DNA from: an uncultured Paracoccaceae bacterium
Lineage (GTDB): Bacteria; Pseudomonadota; Alphaproteobacteria; Rhodobacterales; Rhodobacteraceae
Direction of reading: 5' to 3'
Assembly: GCA_913061275.1 (NCBI GenBank)
Contig: CAJXSR010000025.1
Location: 1 to 47,448, forward strand
DNA length: 47,448 nt
Every line of letters begins with the position of its first letter. Within the stretch, counting starts at the first letter, position 1. Both the position numbers and the translations under genes were made by a program. The notes below the pieces were generated by a model. It was not told the DNA's origin and made no database searches. It saw only the letters and a list, made by a program, of their open reading frames with translations. Positions 9,194 through 47,448 of this stretch are shown here, one piece after another.

Positions 9194-10708
9194 ATGACAT
9201 TCACACCACATGGCAAACATCTTATCGCGGGCATTTGGGTTGGAGGCGAAACCAGATTCACCTCAGAACCGGCCCATGGCCCCGCTCATAATTTCTCTGC
9301 CGGATCACCCGAGCACATAGATCAAGCCGTCAACGCCGCTGAAGACGCTTTTTGGTCCTTTGGCTATTCCAGTCGTAAAGACCGCGCCGCGTTTTTGAAC
9401 GCAATTGCGGATGAGATTGAGGCGCGCGGCGAAGCAATCACAGAAATTGGCACGCAGGAAACAGGATTGCCTGTGGCGCGTTTGCAAGGCGAGCGTGGCC
9501 GCACGACAGGTCAACTGCGCTTGTTTGCAAGCCATATTCTGAGCGGAGATTATCTAGATCGTCGTCACGACGAAGCGATGCCGGAACGTGCGCCGTTGCC
9601 GCGCTCGGATCTGAAAATGATCCAACGGCCCATTGGCCCTGTCGCAGTGTTCGGTGCGTCCAACTTCCCGCTCGCATTTTCGACCGCTGGCGGCGACACA
9701 GCTGCCGCTTTGGCTGCGGGCTGTCCGGTGATTGTGAAGGGCCATTCAGCACATCCTGGCACAGGCGAGATCGTCGCAGAAGCGGTTCACGCGGCAATCG
9801 TCACATGTGACATGCACCCCGGCGTTTTCTCATTTGTGCAGGGTGGCAGTCTTGAAGTGGGACAAGCCTTGGTGCAGCATCCACTGATCAAAGCGGTCGG
9901 CTTTACGGGATCATTGGGCGGTGGCCGTGCCTTGTTTGATCTTTGTGCCCGCCGACCTGAACCCATCCCATTCTTTGGCGAACTGGGCTCAATCAACCCG
10001 ATGTTCATTCTTGAAGGTGCTGGCAAGGCACGAGGGGCTGATATTGGCACAGGATGGGCAGGTTCCCTGACGATGGGGGCTGGGCAGTTTTGCACAAACC
10101 CCGGGACCGTTGTGATCCTGAAAGATCAGGCTGAATTGTTTACTACAGCAGCTGCAAAAGCGTTGGAACAGATCGACACGCAAACGATGCTGACGGATGG
10201 GATCGCATCGGCATTTCGCAAAGGGCAATCGCGCATCGCGGCCAGCGAAGGCGTTCAGGCCGTACTGACGACGACCTGTGATGGGCGCGGTGCCACGCCC
10301 TATCTCTACCAAACGACCGCCGCACAATGGTTGGCCAATGATGACTTGGGTGAAGAGGTTTTTGGCCCATTTGGTCTGGTTGTCCTCGCCGACGATTTAG
10401 AGCAAATGCACAGCGTGGCCCATGCACTGCAAGGCCAGCTGACATGTACACTACAAATGGAAGCCTCTGACGAAGAAGCCGCTAAATCACTGATGCCAAT
10501 TTTGGAACGCAAGGCTGGACGCATTTTGGCCAATGGTTTACCTACGGGCGTCGAGGTCAGTGAGGCGATGGTTCATGGTGGCCCTTATCCAGCGTCCACT
10601 AACTTCGGAGCCACTTCCGTCGGCACCATGTCCATTAGGCGCTTCACTCGGCCGGTTTGTTATCAAGATATTCCTCCTGGTCTCTTGCCGGACTGTTTTC
10701 AAATCTAG
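9194..10708 (+). CDS. Alpha-ketoglutaric semialdehyde (2,5-dioxovalerate) dehydrogenase-like
   Basis: An aldehyde dehydrogenase of 504 residues in the branch that oxidises 2,5-dioxovalerate to 2-oxoglutarate in pentose, aldarate and hydroxyproline breakdown. The branch shows in the N-terminal ETGLPVARLQGERGRTTGQL motif and the C-terminal RRFTRPVCYQDIP. The general-base Glu is at 263 in FGELGS and the catalytic Cys at 300 in GAGQFCTNPG. It is the last gene of the operon, 55 bp after DctM. It implies that the pathway may end in 2-oxoglutarate, but no sugar-acid dehydratase is present in the operon. Confidence 0.85.
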   Translation: MTFTPHGKHLIAGIWVGGETRFTSEPAHGPAHNFSAGSPEHIDQAVNAAEDAFWSFGYSSRKDRAAFLNAIADEIEARGEAITEIGTQETGLPVARLQGERGRTTGQLRLFASHILSGDYLDRRHDEAMPERAPLPRSDLKMIQRPIGPVAVFGASNFPLAFSTAGGDTAAALAAGCPVIVKGHSAHPGTGEIVAEAVHAAIVTCDMHPGVFSFVQGGSLEVGQALVQHPLIKAVGFTGSLGGGRALFDLCARRPEPIPFFGELGSINPMFILEGAGKARGADIGTGWAGSLTMGAGQFCTNPGTVVILKDQAELFTTAAAKALEQIDTQTMLTDGIASAFRKGQSRIAASEGVQAVLTTTCDGRGATPYLYQTTAAQWLANDDLGEEVFGPFGLVVLADDLEQMHSVAHALQGQLTCTLQMEASDEEAAKSLMPILERKAGRILANGLPTGVEVSEAMVHGGPYPASTNFGATSVGTMSIRRFTRPVCYQDIPPGLLPDCFQI

Positions 10709-25030: not shown

Positions 25031-25645
25031 ATGAGAATACTATTAGCAGATGATCACGATCTTGTTCGAGAAACTCTTTCCGCTTATTTAGAAAAAGAAG
25101 ACGGATTTACTGTCGCACAGGCAAATGACCTTGCGCAAACAAAACGCGCTATGGAGACTCATGAACCTTTCGATCTAATACTTCTTGATTATGAAATGCC
25201 AGGTATGAATGGTTTAGATGGGCTTCTAAGCATAATGAAAACTGCAGGTCGTAAACCAGTTGCGCTGATTTCAGGGACCGCAAACAAAAGTATTGCTGAA
25301 AAAGCATTGGAATTAGGTGCTGCAGGGTTTTTACCTAAATCTATGGCAGCCTCATCATTGATTAATGCCGTGAAATTTATGGCTATGGGTGAGAAATATG
25401 CACCTTTGGACTTTATGACCAGTGAAGATGAGGTACCGGATCACCCTCTTAGACAGCAACTTAGCGAAAGAGAGTTGCAGGTTTTATCTGGCTTATGCCA
25501 AGGACTAGCAAATAAGGAAATTGCACGTGAAATTGACTTAAAAGAAGTGACAGTCAAACTTCACGTTAAAACCTTATGCCGAAAATTGGATGCAAAAAAT
25601 CGCACACACGCAGCAATGATTGCAAAGGACGCTGGTCTATTTTGA
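25031..25645 (+). CDS. LuxR/NarL-type response regulator
   Basis: A two-domain regulator of 204 residues. The receiver domain has the acidic pair Asp7-Asp8, phospho-acceptor Asp53 in LILLDYEMPGMNG, and the conserved Lys in FLPKSMA near 105. The C-terminal GerE helix-turn-helix runs from LSERELQVLSGLCQGLANKE to AKNRTHAAMIAKDAGLF. No kinase is adjacent; the nearest is the hybrid kinase at 34.7-37.2 kb in the same locus, whose HPt domain is the natural phosphate donor. I infer that it binds the recurrent 14-bp palindrome upstream of the alg and secretion genes. No such site is seen before its own start. Confidence 0.9.
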   Translation: MRILLADDHDLVRETLSAYLEKEDGFTVAQANDLAQTKRAMETHEPFDLILLDYEMPGMNGLDGLLSIMKTAGRKPVALISGTANKSIAEKALELGAAGFLPKSMAASSLINAVKFMAMGEKYAPLDFMTSEDEVPDHPLRQQLSERELQVLSGLCQGLANKEIAREIDLKEVTVKLHVKTLCRKLDAKNRTHAAMIAKDAGLF

Positions 25646-25663: not shown

Positions 25664-28366
25664 TTATATCAATAGACCATCAGTCACTTCATCGATAAAA
25701 ACGGCACCTATTTCATAACTATCCGCCAATGTAATATAACTGTTTCCAATGGTTATAGTTAGACTGTTATCAACATTTTGAGTTACATTTTGGGTAATCC
25801 AATCTGTATCGGCTTGCCCAATACTGGCAAGATTTAACAACCGCAAATCAAGCCTGTCTTGTTCGCCACCACTGCGCCGAAAATCACTGATCTCATCGTG
25901 ATACCCGCCCAAGTCGTCCGATCTAAATACAAACTGATCAGATCCAGAACCGCCGTTGATGATATCGTTTCCTGCGCCAGAAAATATCTTATCATTGTTG
26001 GCACCACCAAAGATCACATCATCGCCAGTACCAGCATTTATATAATCTTTACCATCATCACCACTGATCGTGTCATTTCCTGATCCACCATACAGTTTAT
26101 CCTTACCATCATCACCTTGAAGGTCATCATGCCCGGTGCCGCCTTTTAAAACGTCATTTCCATCGCCACCAGAAAGCGCATCATCTCCCGAACCGCCATT
26201 CAGGCTATCCGCGTCAGTCCCGCCAATTAACGCATCATTCCCAGAGCCACCAAATAAATCATTCAATCCAGCGATATCCGTAAGCGTATCATTATTGGAA
26301 CCGCCCTCTAATCGGTCATTACCATAACCACCGAACAACTGATCATTACCAACGCCACCGAACAAGAAATCATCGCCAAGACCGCCATTGAGGATATCCA
26401 CACCAGCACCGCCTTGAAGGTTGTCATCATCAGACCCACCGTCAAGCATATCGTCCCCCGAACCACCAACCAGCGTGTCGTTCCCAGAATCGCCGTATAT
26501 TTGATCATCTTGGCCACCACCATTCAGTTGGTCTTGGCCTTCGCCACCATGCAGGGTGTCATTACCCGTACCACCAGAAAGATCATCCTCTCCAGAACCA
26601 CCATCTAGATAATCATGCCCTGCAGAACCATCCAGTAAATCATCACCAATGCCGCCATAAATTCGATCATCATCTTCTGGAAGTATATTTCCAAATTGAT
26701 CATATCTAACGCCATCGTCATCATAAATAGAAACCAAACCATTATATTGCCAATTTGGACCAGCTCCGCCATAAAGCGCATCCTCGCCTGTTCCGCCAGA
26801 TAAAGTGTCTCCATCAGATGATCCAACAATCTGATCGTTCCCTAGGCCACCATATGCATCATCATGCCCAGCGCCGGCATTGATTTGGTCATCGTAACTG
26901 TTGTCCGCTTGTGCTGTTGATACCAATTCAGGGGAACGGATCAGAACGCTTGCGGAAACATCAACTTCGTTGAAAGGATCAGCAGAGCGAGGGTCAATCG
27001 CGCCATCATTAGATGATGACCTTGGAGCATCAGAAACAAGTTCCAAGTAACCCGTACCAGTGGCCGCATCTTGGTGCACAGTATAAATACCCCCAGAGGT
27101 GCCCGTATCTGAATTCAAATCGTGATCACCATTGTTGCCTCCAACATATAGATTGCCATCACCATCTATCATTGCGGCCCCATATGCCGTATTGGCCATG
27201 CCATTTTGCAACTCCCCGTCAACCATAGTGCCTGTAAGCTCAATAATTGAGAAGATGGGTTCCCCTCCTGACGCAACTGCGGACACATCGATACTCATAA
27301 GTTTGCCATTTCCACCATCTTGATTTGGTGAGACAACGCCAAAGAACATCTGACTCTGAGCATCATATGATACATCCCACACGCGGTCCGTAATCATGCT
27401 GGATGGAAACTTAAATGTGGTCGAAACTGGATTACCATACGTATCTAAAGTTCCCACATCGATCATAGTCACGCGATCCATACTGGAATGAAAAGCCCAT
27501 AGGTTTCCACTATCATCGAAATCACCAGTCCATGACGCATATGGGGTTTCACCGATACGGTAACTGTTACCACTTGCATCCATCATGACTAAGTCAGTTC
27601 TGGACACTTGATTTCCCAAAGCATCCACCCCGTTACCAACGGCAATACCATAAATCATGTCGTCTTCTTGATTAAAGCCTACCGCATTGATCACCACAGA
27701 AGCTACATTTCCCGCGGCCGTATAAGTTTCAGTAATCGGATCAAAGACGTGTAACGCACCATTCAACACTTGGTAGATACCAGTTTGACCTGGGGCAAAA
27801 GCATTTACATTCACCGTTTCAGTGCCGACCTGCATATCAGTCTCATAATAGAAAATTGGTGCGTCTGTTTGAATGTTAAGAGGGTCGTCCTGAGTTGACT
27901 CTATCGAACGAAAGGTTAGTTGCCCTTCCCCACCCGTTCCTGAAAAGGAAATTGCATGAGGATCAAATGTAGCACTATTCGTATCAAAACTATCGATAAC
28001 AATGCCATTCCAAAGCACTTCTACAGCTCCTGACAATGTGGAAGACCCATAGTTTGCAGCTATCTCAAAATTGACTGTGTAGTCTGCGCCAGCCTCTGTT
28101 ATCACCGATTGGCTCATCGAGGTGTAGCCGTTCGCTTCTTCTTGAACAGTCCAAGCGCCTGTAGCCCCGAATTGCGCAAAACTAGTGGCGCCCTCAGTAC
28201 CTGTTAACAGGTTCTGTTCAACGTAATCCCCATAGATTATATCGTCGCCATCGTTTGCGTTAATAATATCGTCGCCGGCAAGTGCGATGATTGTTTCTGC
28301 AACATTGGTACCGTCGATTGTTTCGTGAACATCGGTACCAATGATTGAAGGTGTTTCTTCTACCAT
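25664..28366 (-). CDS. RTX repeat protein, probable type I secretion substrate
   Basis: A 900-residue acidic protein with no Sec signal. Residues ~1-55 hold a short RTX-like patch (GDDIINANDGDDIIYGD). Residues ~60-180 look like a jelly-roll, carbohydrate-binding-type domain. Residues ~185-460 are a repeat-rich, propeller-like region (VWDVSYDAQSQMFFGVVSPN, AAMIDGDGNLYVGGNNGD). Residues ~490-810 are calcium-binding nonapeptides (GGxGxDxLx), and the last ~90 residues form the C-terminal secretion cap (FVFRSDDLGGYHDEISDFRR). It lies 31 bp after algD with no promoter site between, so it is probably cotranscribed. The T1SS genes at 44.2 kb are the likely exporter. No epimerase, lyase or protease active site is seen; a matrix or adhesin role is inferred. 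Confidence 0.85.
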   Translation of the reverse strand: MVEETPSIIGTDVHETIDGTNVAETIIALAGDDIINANDGDDIIYGDYVEQNLLTGTEGATSFAQFGATGAWTVQEEANGYTSMSQSVITEAGADYTVNFEIAANYGSSTLSGAVEVLWNGIVIDSFDTNSATFDPHAISFSGTGGEGQLTFRSIESTQDDPLNIQTDAPIFYYETDMQVGTETVNVNAFAPGQTGIYQVLNGALHVFDPITETYTAAGNVASVVINAVGFNQEDDMIYGIAVGNGVDALGNQVSRTDLVMMDASGNSYRIGETPYASWTGDFDDSGNLWAFHSSMDRVTMIDVGTLDTYGNPVSTTFKFPSSMITDRVWDVSYDAQSQMFFGVVSPNQDGGNGKLMSIDVSAVASGGEPIFSIIELTGTMVDGELQNGMANTAYGAAMIDGDGNLYVGGNNGDHDLNSDTGTSGGIYTVHQDAATGTGYLELVSDAPRSSSNDGAIDPRSADPFNEVDVSASVLIRSPELVSTAQADNSYDDQINAGAGHDDAYGGLGNDQIVGSSDGDTLSGGTGEDALYGGAGPNWQYNGLVSIYDDDGVRYDQFGNILPEDDDRIYGGIGDDLLDGSAGHDYLDGGSGEDDLSGGTGNDTLHGGEGQDQLNGGGQDDQIYGDSGNDTLVGGSGDDMLDGGSDDDNLQGGAGVDILNGGLGDDFLFGGVGNDQLFGGYGNDRLEGGSNNDTLTDIAGLNDLFGGSGNDALIGGTDADSLNGGSGDDALSGGDGNDVLKGGTGHDDLQGDDGKDKLYGGSGNDTISGDDGKDYINAGTGDDVIFGGANNDKIFSGAGNDIINGGSGSDQFVFRSDDLGGYHDEISDFRRSGGEQDRLDLRLLNLASIGQADTDWITQNVTQNVDNSLTITIGNSYITLADSYEIGAVFIDEVTDGLLI
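25940..26900 (-). repeat. RTX nonapeptide tandem repeats
   Basis: About three dozen degenerate 27-bp coding repeats for GG-x-G-(N/D)-D-x-L-x. Each block of repeats winds a calcium-bound beta-roll outside the cell. The DNA repeats differ mainly at third positions, so this is an old array rather than a recent expansion. Confidence 0.85.
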
Positions 28367-29886: not shown

Positions 29887-29915
29887 GACTAACCTAACTA
29901 TCCTTTAGGTTAGTC
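29887..29915 (-). promoter_or_regulatory. algD upstream palindrome and operator
   Basis: Arms GACTAACCTAA and TTAGGTTAGTC (11 bp, perfect) surround a 7-bp centre. Inside it, 29899-29912 reads TATCCTTTAGGTTA, one base off the perfect TATCCTTTAGGATA palindrome found before alg44. It lies about 101 bp before the algD start. Confidence 0.7.
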
Positions 29916-31532: not shown

Positions 31533-31546
31533 TATCCCAAAGTATA
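31533..31546. promoter_or_regulatory. Putative operator upstream of algA
   Basis: TATCCCAAAGTATA, a near-palindrome of the recurrent alg-locus type, 107 bp before the algA start. Confidence 0.6.
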
Positions 31547-31561
31547 TTTCGGATTTATATT

Positions 31562-34682: not shown

Positions 34683-34696
34683 TATCCTAAAGGATA
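34683..34696. promoter_or_regulatory. Perfect palindromic operator upstream of alg44
   Basis: TATCCTAAAGGATA, a perfect 14-bp palindrome (best copy in the locus), 124 bp before alg44 and only 2 bp from the end of the kinase gene. Confidence 0.65.
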
Positions 34697-34698
34697 GG

Positions 34699-37858: not shown

Positions 37859-37893
37859 TATACCAAAGTATAGCCGCCCTATCCTAAAGGTTT
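37859..37893. promoter_or_regulatory. Tandem operators upstream of the sensor-kinase unit
   Basis: TATACCAAAGTATA (37859-37872) and TATCCTAAAGGTTT (37880-37893) are spaced 21 bp apart, two helical turns. The first lies within a longer inverted repeat (GGCGGCTATAC / GTATAGTCGCC on the minus strand). They lie 85 and 106 bp before the start. No T-tract follows, so a terminator for algX is less likely than an operator. Confidence 0.6.
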
Positions 37894-42242: not shown

Positions 42243-43481
42243 CTAGAAATAACGTGTTGCACGTATGTAAAACCGTTTTGTTGAGTTTTTGTTTTGATAA
42301 GCTGAGCCAGCCTGAAACACGCCAGCACCAAATTCAACTTTCATTTTCTTTGTTGGGCGCCACGCCCCAATCAAACTTACTTCCGCTCCTAAATATGAAG
42401 AATTGCCTGTTGTAGATCCTGATAGGCGCGCTGAAGGCGTTGTTGCTTGTTTACTCACCTGCACATATAAATACGTATTAAGATCGACAGAGAATTTACG
42501 GTTGGGACGCAAGGCAAGACCAGCAGATGCAACTGCTAAATTTGTCAGATCAGGTTGATATACAAAGCCATAACGGTTGCATAACGTTTGCCCGCCATCA
42601 TTTGTTTTATTACTTTGTAAACCAGTCTGGCGGAACCCTATAGACCCCATAGCAAAACCAAATGTAATTTGTGGATTTAATGCATGTTGAGTGATTTTCT
42701 GTGTCGCACGAAAATCAAATCCGAACCCGTTTTGTTTACCAACTATTGCGTTACCCAAAATACCACCAACATTAGCAGTATATGTAAACCGGGCATTTTT
42801 TTGATTGTTAATATAGCCAACCAAATGACCCAAGCTTGCAGATTTCGAACGCTCGGCGATAGCATAGACACCTATCGTATGCTTCTTTTGGAAATGTGTA
42901 TAATGTGCCAATGCATATGTACCGTCATTATGATCATCATCATTTACAATCGCAATCTCAAAACCTGAATTTTGAAACCGACGCGAAAAGTGAATGCCAT
43001 CAACGGCTTTATCTGCAACCCATTTATTCTTATCAGATAATCTTAAATGCCCTAGTGAAACCGTAGCGTCATTGGTAAGCTTATAAGCAACAAACGCTTC
43101 TTTGATACGAACATCTGATATCATATCATACATTTTTATATGTGTTTCTTTTCCCTTAAAACTGAATTCAAGATGAGCGAATGCTGTGAAATTTTCTGAT
43201 ACTCTGGCGCGCCCAACAACCTCCAGAATTGTTTTATATTGATTTGAATAATCATTTTTTTGATCATCCAATTTCAAATTTATCTCACTTAAATACGAAG
43301 CCGAAACATTGCCAGAAAATGACATGTAGTTATTTATTATGATCTTTGTTTTCTTACGTGTAGTAAGATCAAAACTTAAAGGTGATCGCGCAGGCTTTAT
43401 AGCAGCATATGTGCAATCCATTCCGTAAGCCCATATTACAAAAGCCCCAAATATCAATTGCATCTTCTTACTATAAGTCAT
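42243..43481 (-). CDS. algE: Outer-membrane polysaccharide export porin, AlgE-like
   Basis: A 412-residue beta-barrel precursor. The signal peptide core is MQLIFGAFVIWAYGMDCTYA, and alternating aromatic strands run through to the C-terminal Phe (FYIRATRYF), as needed for barrel assembly. It has the general features of the alginate export porin family (YKTILEVVGRARVSENFTAF, GHLRLSDKNKWV, DGIHFSRRF), but is shorter than Pseudomonas AlgE. It heads the acetylation/export operon. Its promoter, leader and first ~33 codons are duplicated in inverted orientation before the T1SS genes. Confidence 0.8.
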   Translation of the reverse strand: MTYSKKMQLIFGAFVIWAYGMDCTYAAIKPARSPLSFDLTTRKKTKIIINNYMSFSGNVSASYLSEINLKLDDQKNDYSNQYKTILEVVGRARVSENFTAFAHLEFSFKGKETHIKMYDMISDVRIKEAFVAYKLTNDATVSLGHLRLSDKNKWVADKAVDGIHFSRRFQNSGFEIAIVNDDDHNDGTYALAHYTHFQKKHTIGVYAIAERSKSASLGHLVGYINNQKNARFTYTANVGGILGNAIVGKQNGFGFDFRATQKITQHALNPQITFGFAMGSIGFRQTGLQSNKTNDGGQTLCNRYGFVYQPDLTNLAVASAGLALRPNRKFSVDLNTYLYVQVSKQATTPSARLSGSTTGNSSYLGAEVSLIGAWRPTKKMKVEFGAGVFQAGSAYQNKNSTKRFYIRATRYF

Positions 43482-43601
43482 TTTACCAATCCTCTCACCG
43501 ATATGGGTAAGGAATTGATATCCTTTTATTAGCTTATCATTCGACGTAGCATTAGGTGATCAGTTGCTGCATTCGCCTATCATCCATATTCAAAAGTATA
43601 G
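43381..43601 (-). repeat. Inverted repeat, copy 1: algE promoter and 5' coding region
   Basis: 221 bp running from the operator, through the promoter and leader, into the first ~33 codons of algE. It matches 43934-44154 on the other strand with about 13 mismatches and no gap by my count; the inner 180 bp differ at about five positions. Confidence 0.93.
43587..43600. promoter_or_regulatory. Putative operator upstream of algE
   Basis: TATTCAAAAGTATA, 106 bp before the algE start; the duplicate site before the T1SS leader is identical. Confidence 0.6.
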
Positions 43602-43933
43602 GATGGGAACAGAAACAAATCTGATTTGTATAATAATCGTAAGTTCGGTTCATATGTAAGGGAAGTTAATATTCATATTGCGAGTTTCCTGTTTGCATAT
43701 GAAAAATTAAGTATGATGCATTACAAGATGCACGTATCAGAAACTATGCTCTATCTACTTTTGTATCTTATCATTTGTAGAGGCCACCGTTCAATTGATA
43801 TATTATGTATGTATGCGGAGTTTAGTATCAATTTTAACAATAACAACCATTGGTACTACTATCAAAAATAAAACAGAGATCTAAATAGTATTCATAATAA
43901 CTATATAAGTTATGTTCGTTATTTATTGCTAAA
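43602..43933. other. AT-rich spacer between the inverted repeat copies
   Basis: About 330 bp, very AT-rich. An open frame at 43626-43871 lacks a ribosome site and recognisable motifs and is probably chance. The two promoters fire outward from either side of this spacer. Confidence 0.55.
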
Positions 43934-44154
43934 CTATACTTTTGAATATCGGCAATAGACGAATGTAACCACTGATCACCTAATGCTACGTCGAATGATA
44001 AGCTAGTAAAAGGATATCAATTCCTTACCCATATCGGTGAGAGGATTGGTAAAATGACTTATAGTAAGAAGATGCAATTAATATTTGGGGTTTTTGCAAT
44101 ATGGGCTTACGGAATGGATTGCACATATGCTGCTATAAAACCTGCGCGATCACC
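43934..44154 (+). repeat. Inverted repeat, copy 2: algE promoter and 5' region placed before T1SS genes
   Basis: Second arm of the 221-bp inverted duplication. It carries the operator, promoter, ribosome site and first ~33 codons of algE, then departs from algE just after the codons for ARSP. Confidence 0.93.
43935..43948. promoter_or_regulatory. Putative operator upstream of the T1SS unit
   Basis: TATACTTTTGAATA (TATTCAAAAGTATA on the minus strand), 106 bp before the leader ORF start, the same distance as before algE. Conserved although the flanking 25 bp have drifted. Confidence 0.6.
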
Positions 44155-44182
44155 ATCTTTTAATCATTCGCTGGTTTATTGA
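44054..44182 (+). CDS. 42-residue chimeric leader peptide, truncated AlgE signal sequence
   Basis: ATG 44054 is the copied algE start with its original leader. It encodes the AlgE signal peptide with two substitutions (GVFAIWAYG in place of GAFVIWAYG), the first mature residues up to ARSP, then a new tail FNHSLVY and TGA. The stop lies 4 bp before the ABC gene start, which has no ribosome site of its own, so reading this ORF may be needed to start the ABC gene. Whether the peptide itself does anything is unknown. Confidence 0.6.
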   Translation: MTYSKKMQLIFGVFAIWAYGMDCTYAAIKPARSPSFNHSLVY

Positions 44183-44186
44183 TGAC

Positions 44187-45905
44187 ATGATACAAGATTC
44201 CAAATTAATCCAAGCTCGCAAGCAGGGCAGTAAGCTTTTATACGCAGTTGCCATTTTTAGTGCGTTTGTAAATATATTGATGCTAACAGGACCCTTGTTC
44301 ATGCTTCAAGTTTATGATCGTGTCCTTGGATCACGTTCCAACGAAACTTTAGTCGCATTGTTCATCTTGGTCGTCTTGCTCTATATTTTTATGGGCTGCC
44401 TGGATTATGCGCGCAGCCGTGTCATGGCGCGTATTGGGGCACGGTTTCAGGCTTTCTTAGATGAGACGGTCTTTAGAAGCTCCATAAAAAGCGCTATTGA
44501 CGAAAGTAATAGATCTAACCCATCAACAGGCTTACGTGATATTGAATGCATTCAATCTTTAGTCTCAAGCCCTGCTGCCTTTGCTATCTTTGATATTCCA
44601 TGGACACCTTTATTTCTGGCCGCCATTTTTATATTCCACCCATTACTCGGTTGGGTGGCTTTTGTAGGTGGGATCTTTTTATTGGTAATCACATTCTTAA
44701 ATCAACTTTTGACAAAAAAGACGGTTTTAGATGCTGCTATTAAATCTTCACAAGCGAATGCATTTGCAGAAGCCGCACGCCAAGCAACGGAGGTTATTCA
44801 TGCTCAGGGCATGCAATCTGCCATAACAAAACGGTGGTTAAAAAACCGCAATGCAGGATTAAAAGCCTCAATCAGGTCAACAGATCTTACTGGTGTTTTT
44901 TCTTCCCTGACAAAATCATTTCGCCTTCTTTTACAATCAACCATGTTGGCTGTTGGTGCATATCTAGTTTTAAAGAATGAGCTGACACCAGGAGCTATGA
45001 TCGCAGGATCTATCCTTCTTGGTCGTGCCTTAGCACCTCTTGAGATGGCAATTGGGCAATGGCCTTTGGTCGTACGCGCTCACAATGGCTGGAACTCATT
45101 AGAACATCTTTTGACAAATGAATGTATTGCTTCAGAAAAAATGTATCGGGCAAAACCAAAAGCACATCTTGTTGTTAAAAACTTGGGTCTAATTCCCCCT
45201 AGCGAACAGAAACCAACAGTTATGGGTATCAATTTTGAATTGAAGCCCGGTGAAGTATTAGGCGTTCTTGGGAAAAGCGGCTCAGGCAAATCGACACTTG
45301 CAAAAGCACTGGTTGGTTTATGGAAACCTGCTGCAGGAGAAATACGCTTGGATGGCGAAATGATTGAGAATTATGACACCGAGCTGTTTGGAAAGTATAT
45401 TGGTTATCTTCCACAAAATGTTAATTTATTCCACGGATCTGTCGCTGAAAATGTTGCGCGAATGGCAGAAAATCCAGACCCTGAAATGGTGAAAACAGCT
45501 ATAAATATAGCAGAGGCTGATGCTCTTGTTAAAAATTTACCAGAAAGCTTTGATACAATCATACAAAATGGTACAGGCAGATTATCTGGTGGTCAAAAAC
45601 AACGCCTTGGGCTGGCACGTGCTATATACGGCGACCCTGCGATGATAGTTTTAGATGAACCAAATGCAGCATTGGATGCGGATGGGTCATTAGCTCTGAA
45701 TGTTGCAATCAGTAGATTTAAACAACAAGGTAAAATTGTTATCATTATGACCCACCGCCCTATGGCGATTTCTGAATGTGATATGCTTTTATATATTGAA
45801 GATGGCCGCCAAAAAGCATTTGGCCCACGTGATGAAATCTTAAGTTCGATTATCAAGAATGCCAAGGATGTGGCAAAAATTGTTGCCAATGGGAAAGCAG
45901 CATGA
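44187..45905 (+). CDS. Type I secretion ABC transporter, PrtD-like
   Basis: Fused permease/ATPase of 572 residues, the size of the PrtD/LipB subfamily, without an N-terminal peptidase-like domain. Membrane part ~20-300 (FVNILMLTGPLFMLQVYDRV). The ATPase has Walker A GKSGSGKST near 363, signature LSGGQKQRLGLARAI near 465, Walker B MIVLDEPNAALDADG and H-loop IIMTHRP. ATG 44187 follows the leader ORF stop by 4 bp. Its likely cargo is the RTX protein at 25.7-28.4 kb. It overlaps the next gene by 4 bp. Confidence 0.92.
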   Translation: MIQDSKLIQARKQGSKLLYAVAIFSAFVNILMLTGPLFMLQVYDRVLGSRSNETLVALFILVVLLYIFMGCLDYARSRVMARIGARFQAFLDETVFRSSIKSAIDESNRSNPSTGLRDIECIQSLVSSPAAFAIFDIPWTPLFLAAIFIFHPLLGWVAFVGGIFLLVITFLNQLLTKKTVLDAAIKSSQANAFAEAARQATEVIHAQGMQSAITKRWLKNRNAGLKASIRSTDLTGVFSSLTKSFRLLLQSTMLAVGAYLVLKNELTPGAMIAGSILLGRALAPLEMAIGQWPLVVRAHNGWNSLEHLLTNECIASEKMYRAKPKAHLVVKNLGLIPPSEQKPTVMGINFELKPGEVLGVLGKSGSGKSTLAKALVGLWKPAAGEIRLDGEMIENYDTELFGKYIGYLPQNVNLFHGSVAENVARMAENPDPEMVKTAINIAEADALVKNLPESFDTIIQNGTGRLSGGQKQRLGLARAIYGDPAMIVLDEPNAALDADGSLALNVAISRFKQQGKIVIIMTHRPMAISECDMLLYIEDGRQKAFGPRDEILSSIIKNAKDVAKIVANGKAA

Positions 45906-47212
45906 GCAATGATATAACCCCAAATGAATGGTCAACATCCCGTCCGCTTGTTATTGGGTTTTCCAGTTTGATATTACTCGTCCTTGGTGTGGGGTTATGG
46001 AGTATTACAACACAGATATCAGGTGCAGTAATCGCCAGAGGTCGCATTCAAGTGGAAGCCAATCATCAAGTTATTCAACACCCAACAGGCGGTGTTGTTA
46101 GAGATATCATGGTGTCCGAAGGGAGTATCGTTGAAGCAGGTGATGTAGTTATCCGTTTCGATGATAGCGGTCTAAAATCCGAACTTGGAATTGTCGAAAG
46201 CCAATATTTTGAATTGATTGCACGTAAAGCCCTTTTCAAGGCTGAACAGAATGATAAATCTGAGCTAGTATATGATGCTGAACTTATGACTAGAGCCGAA
46301 CAAGATCCAAATATACTGTCCTTAATGGATGGGCAGTCTAACTTTTTTATAGCGCGAAGAGCTTCTCTTGATAAACAAAAAGAACAGCTGGCAGAACAAA
46401 CTATCCAACTGAATAATCAGGTTACAGGTGTTGAAGCACAGAAAAGAGCAAATCAAACACAGCTCGAACTTCTAAAAGAAGAATTAACTAACGCACAAAC
46501 ATTGTTGGATAAAGGCCTTACGCAAGTTTCACGTGTCTTAGTGCTACTGCGCGAAAAAGCACGGATCTCAGGTCAGGTGGGAAGTTTAACTGCTGATCTT
46601 GGGCGGCTAAAAGCAGCTATTAATGGCATTAACATCCAACTACTCCAATTGGATGCGGAGCGGCGTAGAAGTGCTATAGAAAGCCTGCGTGATATTGGTT
46701 ATCGCGTATTAGAATTAGCCGAGCGTAGGATCTCTATAAAACAATCTATATCTCAACTCTCTGTTCGTGCCCCAATGTCAGGAATTGTTCACGGTAATCA
46801 AATATTTGCATTACAATCAGTTGTTCAACCCGCGCAACCGATGATGTATATCATTCCAAGCGATTTACCTTTGGTAGTACAGGCACAGCTGGATGTTGTT
46901 CACGCAGATCAAGTCTATGTTGGTCAAAATACAACTTTAAATTTCTCAGCTTTTAGTCAGCGCACAACTCCGAAAATTTTTGGAACTGTAACAAAATTAT
47001 CTGCTGATGCGTTCACAGATCAAGTCTCTGGATTGAATTATTATCAAGTCGAGCTTGTGCCAAATCAAAGTGAGTTAGTAAAATTAAAGAACTTAGAGCT
47101 TTTACCTGGTATGCCTGTTGAGGCGTTTCTTAATACGGATGATCGCAGTGCTTTTTCCTATCTTATAAAACCAGTCACCGACTATTTTAATAAAGCTTTC
47201 CGTGAGGAGTAA
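45902..47212 (+). CDS. Type I secretion membrane fusion protein, HlyD/PrtE-like
   Basis: Periplasmic adaptor of 436 residues: a cytoplasmic N-terminal tail, one helix (~20-40), a lipoyl-like hairpin (GGVVRDIMVSEGSIVEAGDVV), a long coiled coil (~85-280), and the second lipoyl half SVRAPMSGIVHG followed by a beta-barrel region. It links the ABC transporter to a TolC-type channel, which is not in the window. It overlaps the ABC gene (ATGA). Confidence 0.92.
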   Translation: MSNDITPNEWSTSRPLVIGFSSLILLVLGVGLWSITTQISGAVIARGRIQVEANHQVIQHPTGGVVRDIMVSEGSIVEAGDVVIRFDDSGLKSELGIVESQYFELIARKALFKAEQNDKSELVYDAELMTRAEQDPNILSLMDGQSNFFIARRASLDKQKEQLAEQTIQLNNQVTGVEAQKRANQTQLELLKEELTNAQTLLDKGLTQVSRVLVLLREKARISGQVGSLTADLGRLKAAINGINIQLLQLDAERRRSAIESLRDIGYRVLELAERRISIKQSISQLSVRAPMSGIVHGNQIFALQSVVQPAQPMMYIIPSDLPLVVQAQLDVVHADQVYVGQNTTLNFSAFSQRTTPKIFGTVTKLSADAFTDQVSGLNYYQVELVPNQSELVKLKNLELLPGMPVEAFLNTDDRSAFSYLIKPVTDYFNKAFREE

Positions 47213-47448
47213 GTGTTATTTAGAGATATATAAATGAGGTTTCTATTGACTGTAGCAAGGTAAAGGTCCGCATGAAAAGCTATGCCTTGTGGGAATTCAA
47301 ACGAAGAAATTAAAATTCGTTTTAATACACATCTCAAAAAAGTGATATTTCTCTAAATTGACTTTGCATTGATAAAACTCATCTAACCTGCTTTGGACCT
47401 GTCGCGGTTTAGTGCCGCTCCATGTTCTCATTTAAGCGGCTATTCGTT
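47213..47448. other. End of window, no gene recognised
   Basis: AT-rich tail after the T1SS unit. No TolC gene start, terminator or IS end can be supported. Confidence 0.4.

Follow-up and report, generated by a model that had tools for sequence, protein, structure and literature searches.

Why does a type I secretion system (T1SS) at the edge of a polymer cluster stand behind a mirror-image copy of that cluster's own control region? The question arises in a window of 47,448 nucleotides, the whole of contig C25 in a 3.39-Mb draft assembly of 56 contigs. Here the genes of an alginate-like cluster occupy the minus strand between 43481 and 25664, and the T1SS genes lie to its right in divergent orientation. 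The junction between them has these features:

42243..43481, minus strand: AlgE-like outer-membrane polymer export gene, first of the cluster and promoter donor (PF13372)
43381..43601, minus strand: left arm, with the algE operator, promoter/leader and first 33 codons (repeat search and position-by-position comparison)
43602..43933, no strand: AT-rich spacer of 332 nt, unmatched elsewhere in the genome
43934..44154, plus strand: right arm, a copy of the algE control region plus 33 codons, before the T1SS genes (same basis as the left arm)
44187..45905, plus strand: type I secretion ABC transporter, PrtD type (TIGR01842)
45902..47212, plus strand: HlyD-type membrane fusion protein (TIGR01843)

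A repeat search returns two arms of 221 nt each, 94% complementary and 332 nt apart, and position-by-position comparison counts 13 differing positions in 221 with no gap. An E-value of 6e-94 excludes a chance origin. Both arms carry an ATG at offset 120, and the algE portion copied into the right arm amounts to 101 nt, or 33 codons. The right arm thus holds an operator, a leader, a ribosome site and 33 AlgE-like codons; 32 nt separate it from the start codon of the ABC gene. Identity is uneven along the arms, at 176/181 positions (97.2%) in the part distal to the spacer and 32/40 (80%) on the spacer side. GC content is 28.9% in the spacer, 38.9% in the left arm and 46.1% in the window. A preliminary description had reported an ungapped inverted repeat of 221 bp at about 94% identity around a 332-bp AT-rich spacer, with an inner 180 bp at about 97% and some 33 algE codons placed directly before the ABC gene, and had proposed aligning the arms; the alignment agrees with it on all these points.

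The assembly is a draft, and an assembly artefact might in principle have produced the arm pair, yet this has next to no chance of being right. A simple assembly or amplification chimera should give identical arms, whereas these differ at 13 sites. The junctions occur once in the assembly, and ordinary coding sequence flanks them on both sides. In a search of all 3.39 Mb, the arm region matches only itself, and the arms match each other.

The gene whose control region was copied heads a recognizable cluster. Its product scores 64.3 bits against PF13372 (Alginate_exp; cut-off 25.2). The export and acetylation part of the cluster comprises this AlgE-like protein, AlgF, an MBOAT acetylase and two AlgX-domain proteins; further genes encode a 174-aa protein without a Pfam match, a hybrid histidine kinase, an Alg44-like HlyD protein and a GT2 synthase; the remaining ones encode ManC-like and AlgD-like enzymes and a 900-aa RTX protein. 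A porin, a synthase, an Alg44-like protein, GDP-mannose enzymes and acetylation functions, as alginate biosynthesis requires, are therefore all represented (PF13372, PF13641, HlyD-like, PF00483/PF01050, PF03721, AlgF, MBOAT and two ALGX). Several gene names, among them synthase, Alg44 and AlgD, are those we presume from family and gene order. Since AlgG epimerase, AlgL lyase and AlgK have no Pfam match among the 20 window proteins scanned, the cluster is called alginate-like and its polymer is putative. Two genes at the cluster end matter for what follows:

25031..25645, plus strand: LuxR/NarL-type response regulator, candidate operator binder (PF00072, PF00196)
25664..28366, minus strand: RTX-repeat protein of 900 aa, candidate T1SS cargo (PF00353)

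The regulator gene is convergent to the cluster and is retained beside it in two other genomes, Amylibacter sp. SFDW26 and G242. SFDW26 is the nearest named relative with the same cluster, collinear gene by gene with kinase, regulator and RTX gene included. Its AlgE-like ortholog is 65% identical, its RTX gene is similar in the C-terminal part (61% over 412 aa), and its sequence at and before the algE start matches the window at 78% over 126 alignment columns. The cluster is otherwise rare. A close AlgE occurs in 2 of 61 genomes searched, the source genome and SFDW26; counting the source genome, AlgE matches appear in 3 of these 61, the third (G001) at 23% over part of the protein, and in 3 of 394 genomes of the family. 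The genome-contig scan gives one AlgE locus, and 14 plasmid records hold a relative of the synthase, every one below 60% identity.

On the recipient side, the ABC protein scores 629.6 bits against TIGR01842 (cut-off 510.15) and the HlyD-type protein 340.1 bits against TIGR01843 (cut-off 208.65), so both exceed the curated cut-offs of a PrtD-type T1SS. Compared with PrtD/PrtE-type systems, the two proteins are ordinary; their control region and location are what is unusual. The contig ends 236 nt past the HlyD gene, within a further feature:

47394..47448, plus strand: terminal part of a multi-copy IS-like element; the contig breaks off here

This element starts with TGGACCTGTCGCGG, and the source contig and five others begin or end there. 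No transposase is seen in it; it is a possible vehicle of the T1SS.

What the right arm brought to these genes can be read from the operator that it shares with the cluster. The form common to its sites is the palindrome TATNCTTTNGNATA, and the genome scan places it as follows:

43587..43601, minus strand: algE operator CTATACTTTTGAATA, exact
43934..43948, plus strand: T1SS-copy operator CTATACTTTTGAATA, exact
37859..37873, minus strand: operator before the 174-aa gene, exact
34683..34697, minus strand: operator before the Alg44-like gene, exact
31533..31547, minus strand: operator before the ManC-like gene, one mismatch
29898..29912, plus strand: operator before the AlgD-like gene, one mismatch, inverse orientation

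In the 3.39-Mb genome, CTATNCTTTNGNATA is exact at four sites, all four in the polymer cluster or the T1SS arm, where they precede algE, the T1SS, the 174-aa gene and the Alg44-like gene. The operator also stands before orthologous cluster genes in three further genomes. A set of 25 upstream stretches, 24 before cluster genes (source genome, SFDW26, G242 and G194) plus the T1SS arm, contains it exactly in 14, with one mismatch in 3 and with two mismatches in 2; the other 6, before RTX, regulator and G242 kinase genes, lack it (4-5 mismatches). At zero to one mismatch it is thus found in 17/25 stretches against 0.9% of 2,500 shuffles, all of the latter with one mismatch and none exact. None of seven other T1SS upstream stretches has it at this level, every site there having two or more mismatches; one of the seven, from a distant second T1SS of SFDW26, lies mostly inside the preceding gene.

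Because the pattern was defined after the sites had been seen and the arms are copies of each other, the 25-stretch test and the genome scan are partly circular, and among these results the genome-wide scans weigh more. Two analyses are less circular. A search with the arm's own 15-mer places all four of the best window matches listed in intergenic regions of the cluster, as it does several of those listed as best in SFDW26, G242 and G194, with others elsewhere. A 16-nt form built from the exact sites of G242 and G194, two other genera, has eight genome matches at up to one mismatch (reversed control: five), five of them in contig C25, which is 1.4% of the genome (binomial p 3e-8, counting the two copied arms as independent). 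Exact operators fall inside the cluster for one of two in SFDW26 (G017), three of four in G242 and two of three in G194; G032 has one genome-wide and G001 none. At up to one mismatch, operator and reversed-control counts are 18 and 25 in the source genome, 25 and 27 in SFDW26, 12 and 29 in G032, 19 and 20 in G001, 17 and 5 in G242, and 10 and 9 in G194. The control thus outnumbers the operator in four of six genomes, is about equal in G194 and is lower in G242, which makes lone one-mismatch sites outside the cluster uninformative. Operator-like sites also lie beyond the G194 cluster piece, in L041 (G194:C307) and at 10163 and 1202 of G194:C235, and are possibly further regulon members.

From this distribution, the arm most likely gave the T1SS the operator of the regulon, and the secretion genes probably became members of the polymer regulon in this way. 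NarL/FixJ (LuxR-type) response regulators bind operators with 7-nt half-sites. The operator here resembles these in consisting of two head-on 7-nt half-sites (TATNCTT/TNGNATA), with a gene for such a regulator at the cluster end; unlike in NarL/FixJ operators, the half-sites follow each other without a gap, and binding is a prediction.

The right arm carries more than an operator. Three features lie at or beyond the leaders:

43484..43520, minus strand: predicted leader hairpin including the algE ribosome site (coordinates by register with the right arm)
44015..44051, plus strand: predicted leader hairpin including the ribosome site (folding)
44054..44182, plus strand: truncated AlgE leader peptide of 42 aa; 4 nt separate its TGA (44180-44182) from the ABC start

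The right-arm hairpin spans 37 nt immediately 5' of the start codon. A right-arm piece of 76 nt folds at an MFE of -19.2 kcal/mol (z -2.7), both arms have a like fold there, and folding of the next 140 nt is unremarkable (z 1.1). The SFDW26 leader folds onto the same conserved ribosome-site strand with a different opposite strand; in the folded stretches of G242 and G194, which are partly coding, the same hairpin is not seen. The hairpin may possibly serve as a second layer of control. Downstream of it, the copied algE frame runs into unrelated sequence and closes after 42 codons. Four of the 33 codons shared between the arms differ, two silently (L, K) and two by conservative non-synonymous changes (A/V, V/A).

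The two non-synonymous changes among these four could mark the right arm as an inactive relic, left by the event through which the T1SS arrived, with the T1SS silent or driven from a promoter in the spacer, where a weak sigma-70-like match lies at 43834-43862 on the plus strand. Such a reading is unlikely. The arm retains an intact operator, leader hairpin and ribosome site, no stop interrupts its 42-codon frame, which closes 4 nt before the ABC start, and promoter-like matches in the region are at chance level: a sigma-70 scan of the arm region gives five, against 5.4 in shuffles, and no good match.

The spacer contributes little that can be recognized. One stop-free stretch reaches 89 codons and all others 55 or fewer. 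Its halves have no convincing similarity to each other, nor does the spacer to the region upstream of SFDW26 algE or to native T1SS upstream regions; the best match, between the right half and SFDW26, is equalled by 2.7% of 300 shuffles. Rfam has no match in 43300-44300. A perfect 15-nt palindrome, ACAAATCTGATTTGT, with a central T, lies at 43615-43629 next to a TATAAT-like sequence and is possibly another regulator's site. An inverted repeat of 221 nt around 332 nt should be able to invert by homologous recombination, and the arms might therefore serve chiefly for recombination, as part of a segment that inverts or is unstable, without any regulatory capture. This is very unlikely, because inversion of the spacer leaves both outward promoters as before, a recombinase domain is absent among the 20 window proteins scanned with Pfam, and the coding potential of the spacer is small. 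With both orientations pointing outward and no recombinase among those proteins, the segment also does not qualify as an invertible promoter switch.

Promoter capture predicts relatives whose T1SS lacks the arm, a comparison that the preliminary description had proposed. Blastn of window positions 43250-44400 against the T1SS loci of 11 relatives (L009-L019) finds no arm; similarity, where present, begins at or inside the ABC gene. In SFDW26 it starts inside this gene, and the upstream stretch in G006 has no match. The closest T1SS of SFDW26 (ABC 83% identical in amino acids) is on another contig, without the arm, flanked by Rhs-like and nuclease-domain genes on one side and UDP-sugar/YjbH genes on the other; at this locus (L021:131-9887) it adjoins a large RHS/FG-GAP-repeat protein and HNH and Tox-REase-7 domain genes. 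A more distant SFDW26 T1SS (ABC 35%) lies about 7 kb beyond its cluster. On the donor side, algE retains an intact left arm, and the promoter is conserved at SFDW26 algE; on the recipient side, its copy stands directly upstream.

Gene order adds an element of history beyond the original claim of capture. Three relatives, G032, G001 and G006, carry the T1SS with choline-oxidation genes on one side, represented by choline sulfatase in the first two and a GMC oxidoreductase in G006, and a YjbH/YjbF pair on the other. In the source genome, the equivalent locus is on C17. Its choline sulfatase is 90% identical to that of G032, and the members of its YjbH/YjbF pair are 78% and 70% identical to theirs in G032, but no T1SS stands between them; another YjbF/YjbH pair, along with a 184-aa gene, takes its place. 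Two neighbouring YjbF/YjbH pairs thus stand (L048:10002-16294) where three relatives carry a T1SS. The empty C17 locus indicates that the T1SS beside algE moved or newly arrived.

Trees and marker genes bear on which of these occurred. In a HlyD tree of 7 rows, the source T1SS groups with that of SFDW26 (98/97). By rpoB, SFDW26 and G032 are 96.0% identical in nucleotides, and the source genome is 84.5-87.0% identical to four others, nearest to G006 (87.0%). This conflict makes horizontal acquisition as likely as a move within the genome. The evidence favours some horizontal history for the T1SS, perhaps shared with the polymer cluster, given how few searched genomes have a close AlgE. An ABC tree of 9 rows, which omits several more distant T1SSs and the G006 ABC, does not resolve the T1SS history. 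The G006 ABC gene (L025:9522-11226) is split over two frames, by a natural break or a sequencing error. As for insertion sites, the window has no tRNA, and the nine loci examined have one, a tRNA-Phe in L027. By eye, an integrase-like frame and a stretch resembling a tRNA 3' end seem to adjoin the SFDW26 cluster (L020:7000-7480), a hint of a genomic island; ARAGORN reports no tRNA on L020.

How old is the copy? The preliminary description took the near-identity of the inner 180 bp to suggest recent duplication or ongoing gene conversion. With SFDW26 as a third sequence, the 40 nt on the spacer side show eight differences between the arms, eight between the left arm and SFDW26 and eight between the right arm and SFDW26; the corresponding counts in the inner 180 nt are 5, 70 and 71. 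The inner rate predicts 1.1 differences in 40 nt where eight are observed (Poisson p 2e-5), and the unequal divergence along the arms gives a Fisher p of 1e-4. With SFDW26 as outgroup, six of the 13 changes fall on the right arm, five on the left and two are unassignable. Spacer-side equidistance beside a near-identical inner part makes the arms a mosaic, and it casts doubt on the word recent.

An old duplication, in which recombination keeps the inner 180 nt alike and the spacer-side 40 nt escape, has an even chance of being right. It accounts for the contrasting counts in the two parts, for both p-values and for changes on both arms. It depends, however, on 40 nt with eight differences and on a loose SFDW26 alignment in the inner coding part, and the same pattern could follow from errors clustered at the duplication event or from selection favouring differing promoters. 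Mutation clusters are known to occur near template-switch junctions, and a recent duplication, with its spacer-side differences due to error-prone template switching or promoter-specific selection, would explain why only 5 of 180 inner positions diverge. This alternative is doubtful, since all eight differences fall within a stretch of 40 nt in which the conserved operator lies as well, and since the arms there are no nearer to each other than to SFDW26, as slow drift predicts. Inverted-arm gene conversion that fails near the spacer is perhaps the simplest account of the mosaic; clustered errors at the event, or a separate origin of the outer piece, are possible. Of the two options first offered, conversion fits better than recency. 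Rather more tentatively, with somewhat less than an even chance, the arms may evolve in concert: conversion across the 332-nt spacer would keep one cassette, made up of operator, leader hairpin, ribosome site and signal-peptide codons, nearly identical for two divergent operons, repairing itself and welding a mobile T1SS to the polymer regulon. The old-duplication reading bears on how old the arms are and how they are maintained, and it does not conflict with promoter capture.

The likely explanation as a whole, held with fair confidence, is an inverted copy of the algE control region before a relocated or newly acquired T1SS operon, which thereby joined the polymer regulon. It draws directly on the arms, the operator distribution, the gene order of relatives and the reading frame. 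The algE operator, promoter, leader hairpin, ribosome site and the end encoding the signal peptide would have been copied in mirror image, landing before a T1SS operon that had moved or been newly acquired. The T1SS genes would so enter an alginate-like regulon whose operons bear the same palindromic operator. From the spacer region, transcription would run both leftward into the polymer cluster and rightward into the ABC and HlyD genes, and T1SS and polymer genes would probably be switched on together. In the rightward transcript, the copied algE site would be where ribosomes load; after 42 codons they would meet the stop, 4 nt short of the ABC start, and reinitiate at that start. Promoter activity, the identity of the regulator, this translational coupling and the cargo are the parts predicted from sequence. 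The earlier claim of promoter capture by duplication therefore stands as to capture, with relatives that lack the arm, an arm that carries the operator, and a T1SS missing from the C17 locus and present there in three relatives; its recency is doubtful.

The likely benefit would be an exporter made together with its likely cargo, the RTX protein at the cluster end. RTX proteins are established T1SS substrates (see also PMC6891781), which makes this protein, with PF00353 in nine stretches and a G242 ortholog 53% identical over 891 aa, a natural candidate. The link is not unique, since RTX repeats occur on six further contigs of the source genome, and C44 carries another T1SS ABC gene at 60% identity. 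In the two pieces of about 20 kb examined from G242, a T1SS similar to that of the window was not found.

Two known systems place this arrangement. The Azotobacter-type epimerase exporter (Eex) is the T1SS of an alginate producer with RTX-containing cargo, according to PMC7385640 and PMC4465626. The window likewise sets a T1SS beside an alginate-like cluster and an RTX-containing candidate cargo. Unlike the Eex cargo, its RTX protein matches RTX and R-module families only, with no catalytic epimerase A-module, and its link to the T1SS is a copied promoter. The locus makes a coupling of polymer synthesis to the secretion of RTX proteins testable, and for alginate-like clusters in Rhodobacteraceae it supplies a motif that can be tested and a candidate regulator.

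Promoter capture itself is familiar chiefly from selection experiments, where it proceeds by tandem duplication or deletion. Cases of this kind described in PMC11111574 are the citrate transporter in the E. coli long-term experiment, the Salmonella histidine genes and transferred genes in E. coli. The word "inverted" does not occur in its main text, and a literature search with limited coverage of subscription journals found no report of an inverted algE-promoter/T1SS arrangement. As in those cases, a rearrangement has probably put a gene under a neighbouring promoter. Unlike them, the copy here is inverted and forms a divergent promoter pair, it carries a definable regulon operator, a leader and a truncated frame, and it is a natural case in which donor, recipient, unlinked state and T1SS-free locus are all visible in relatives.
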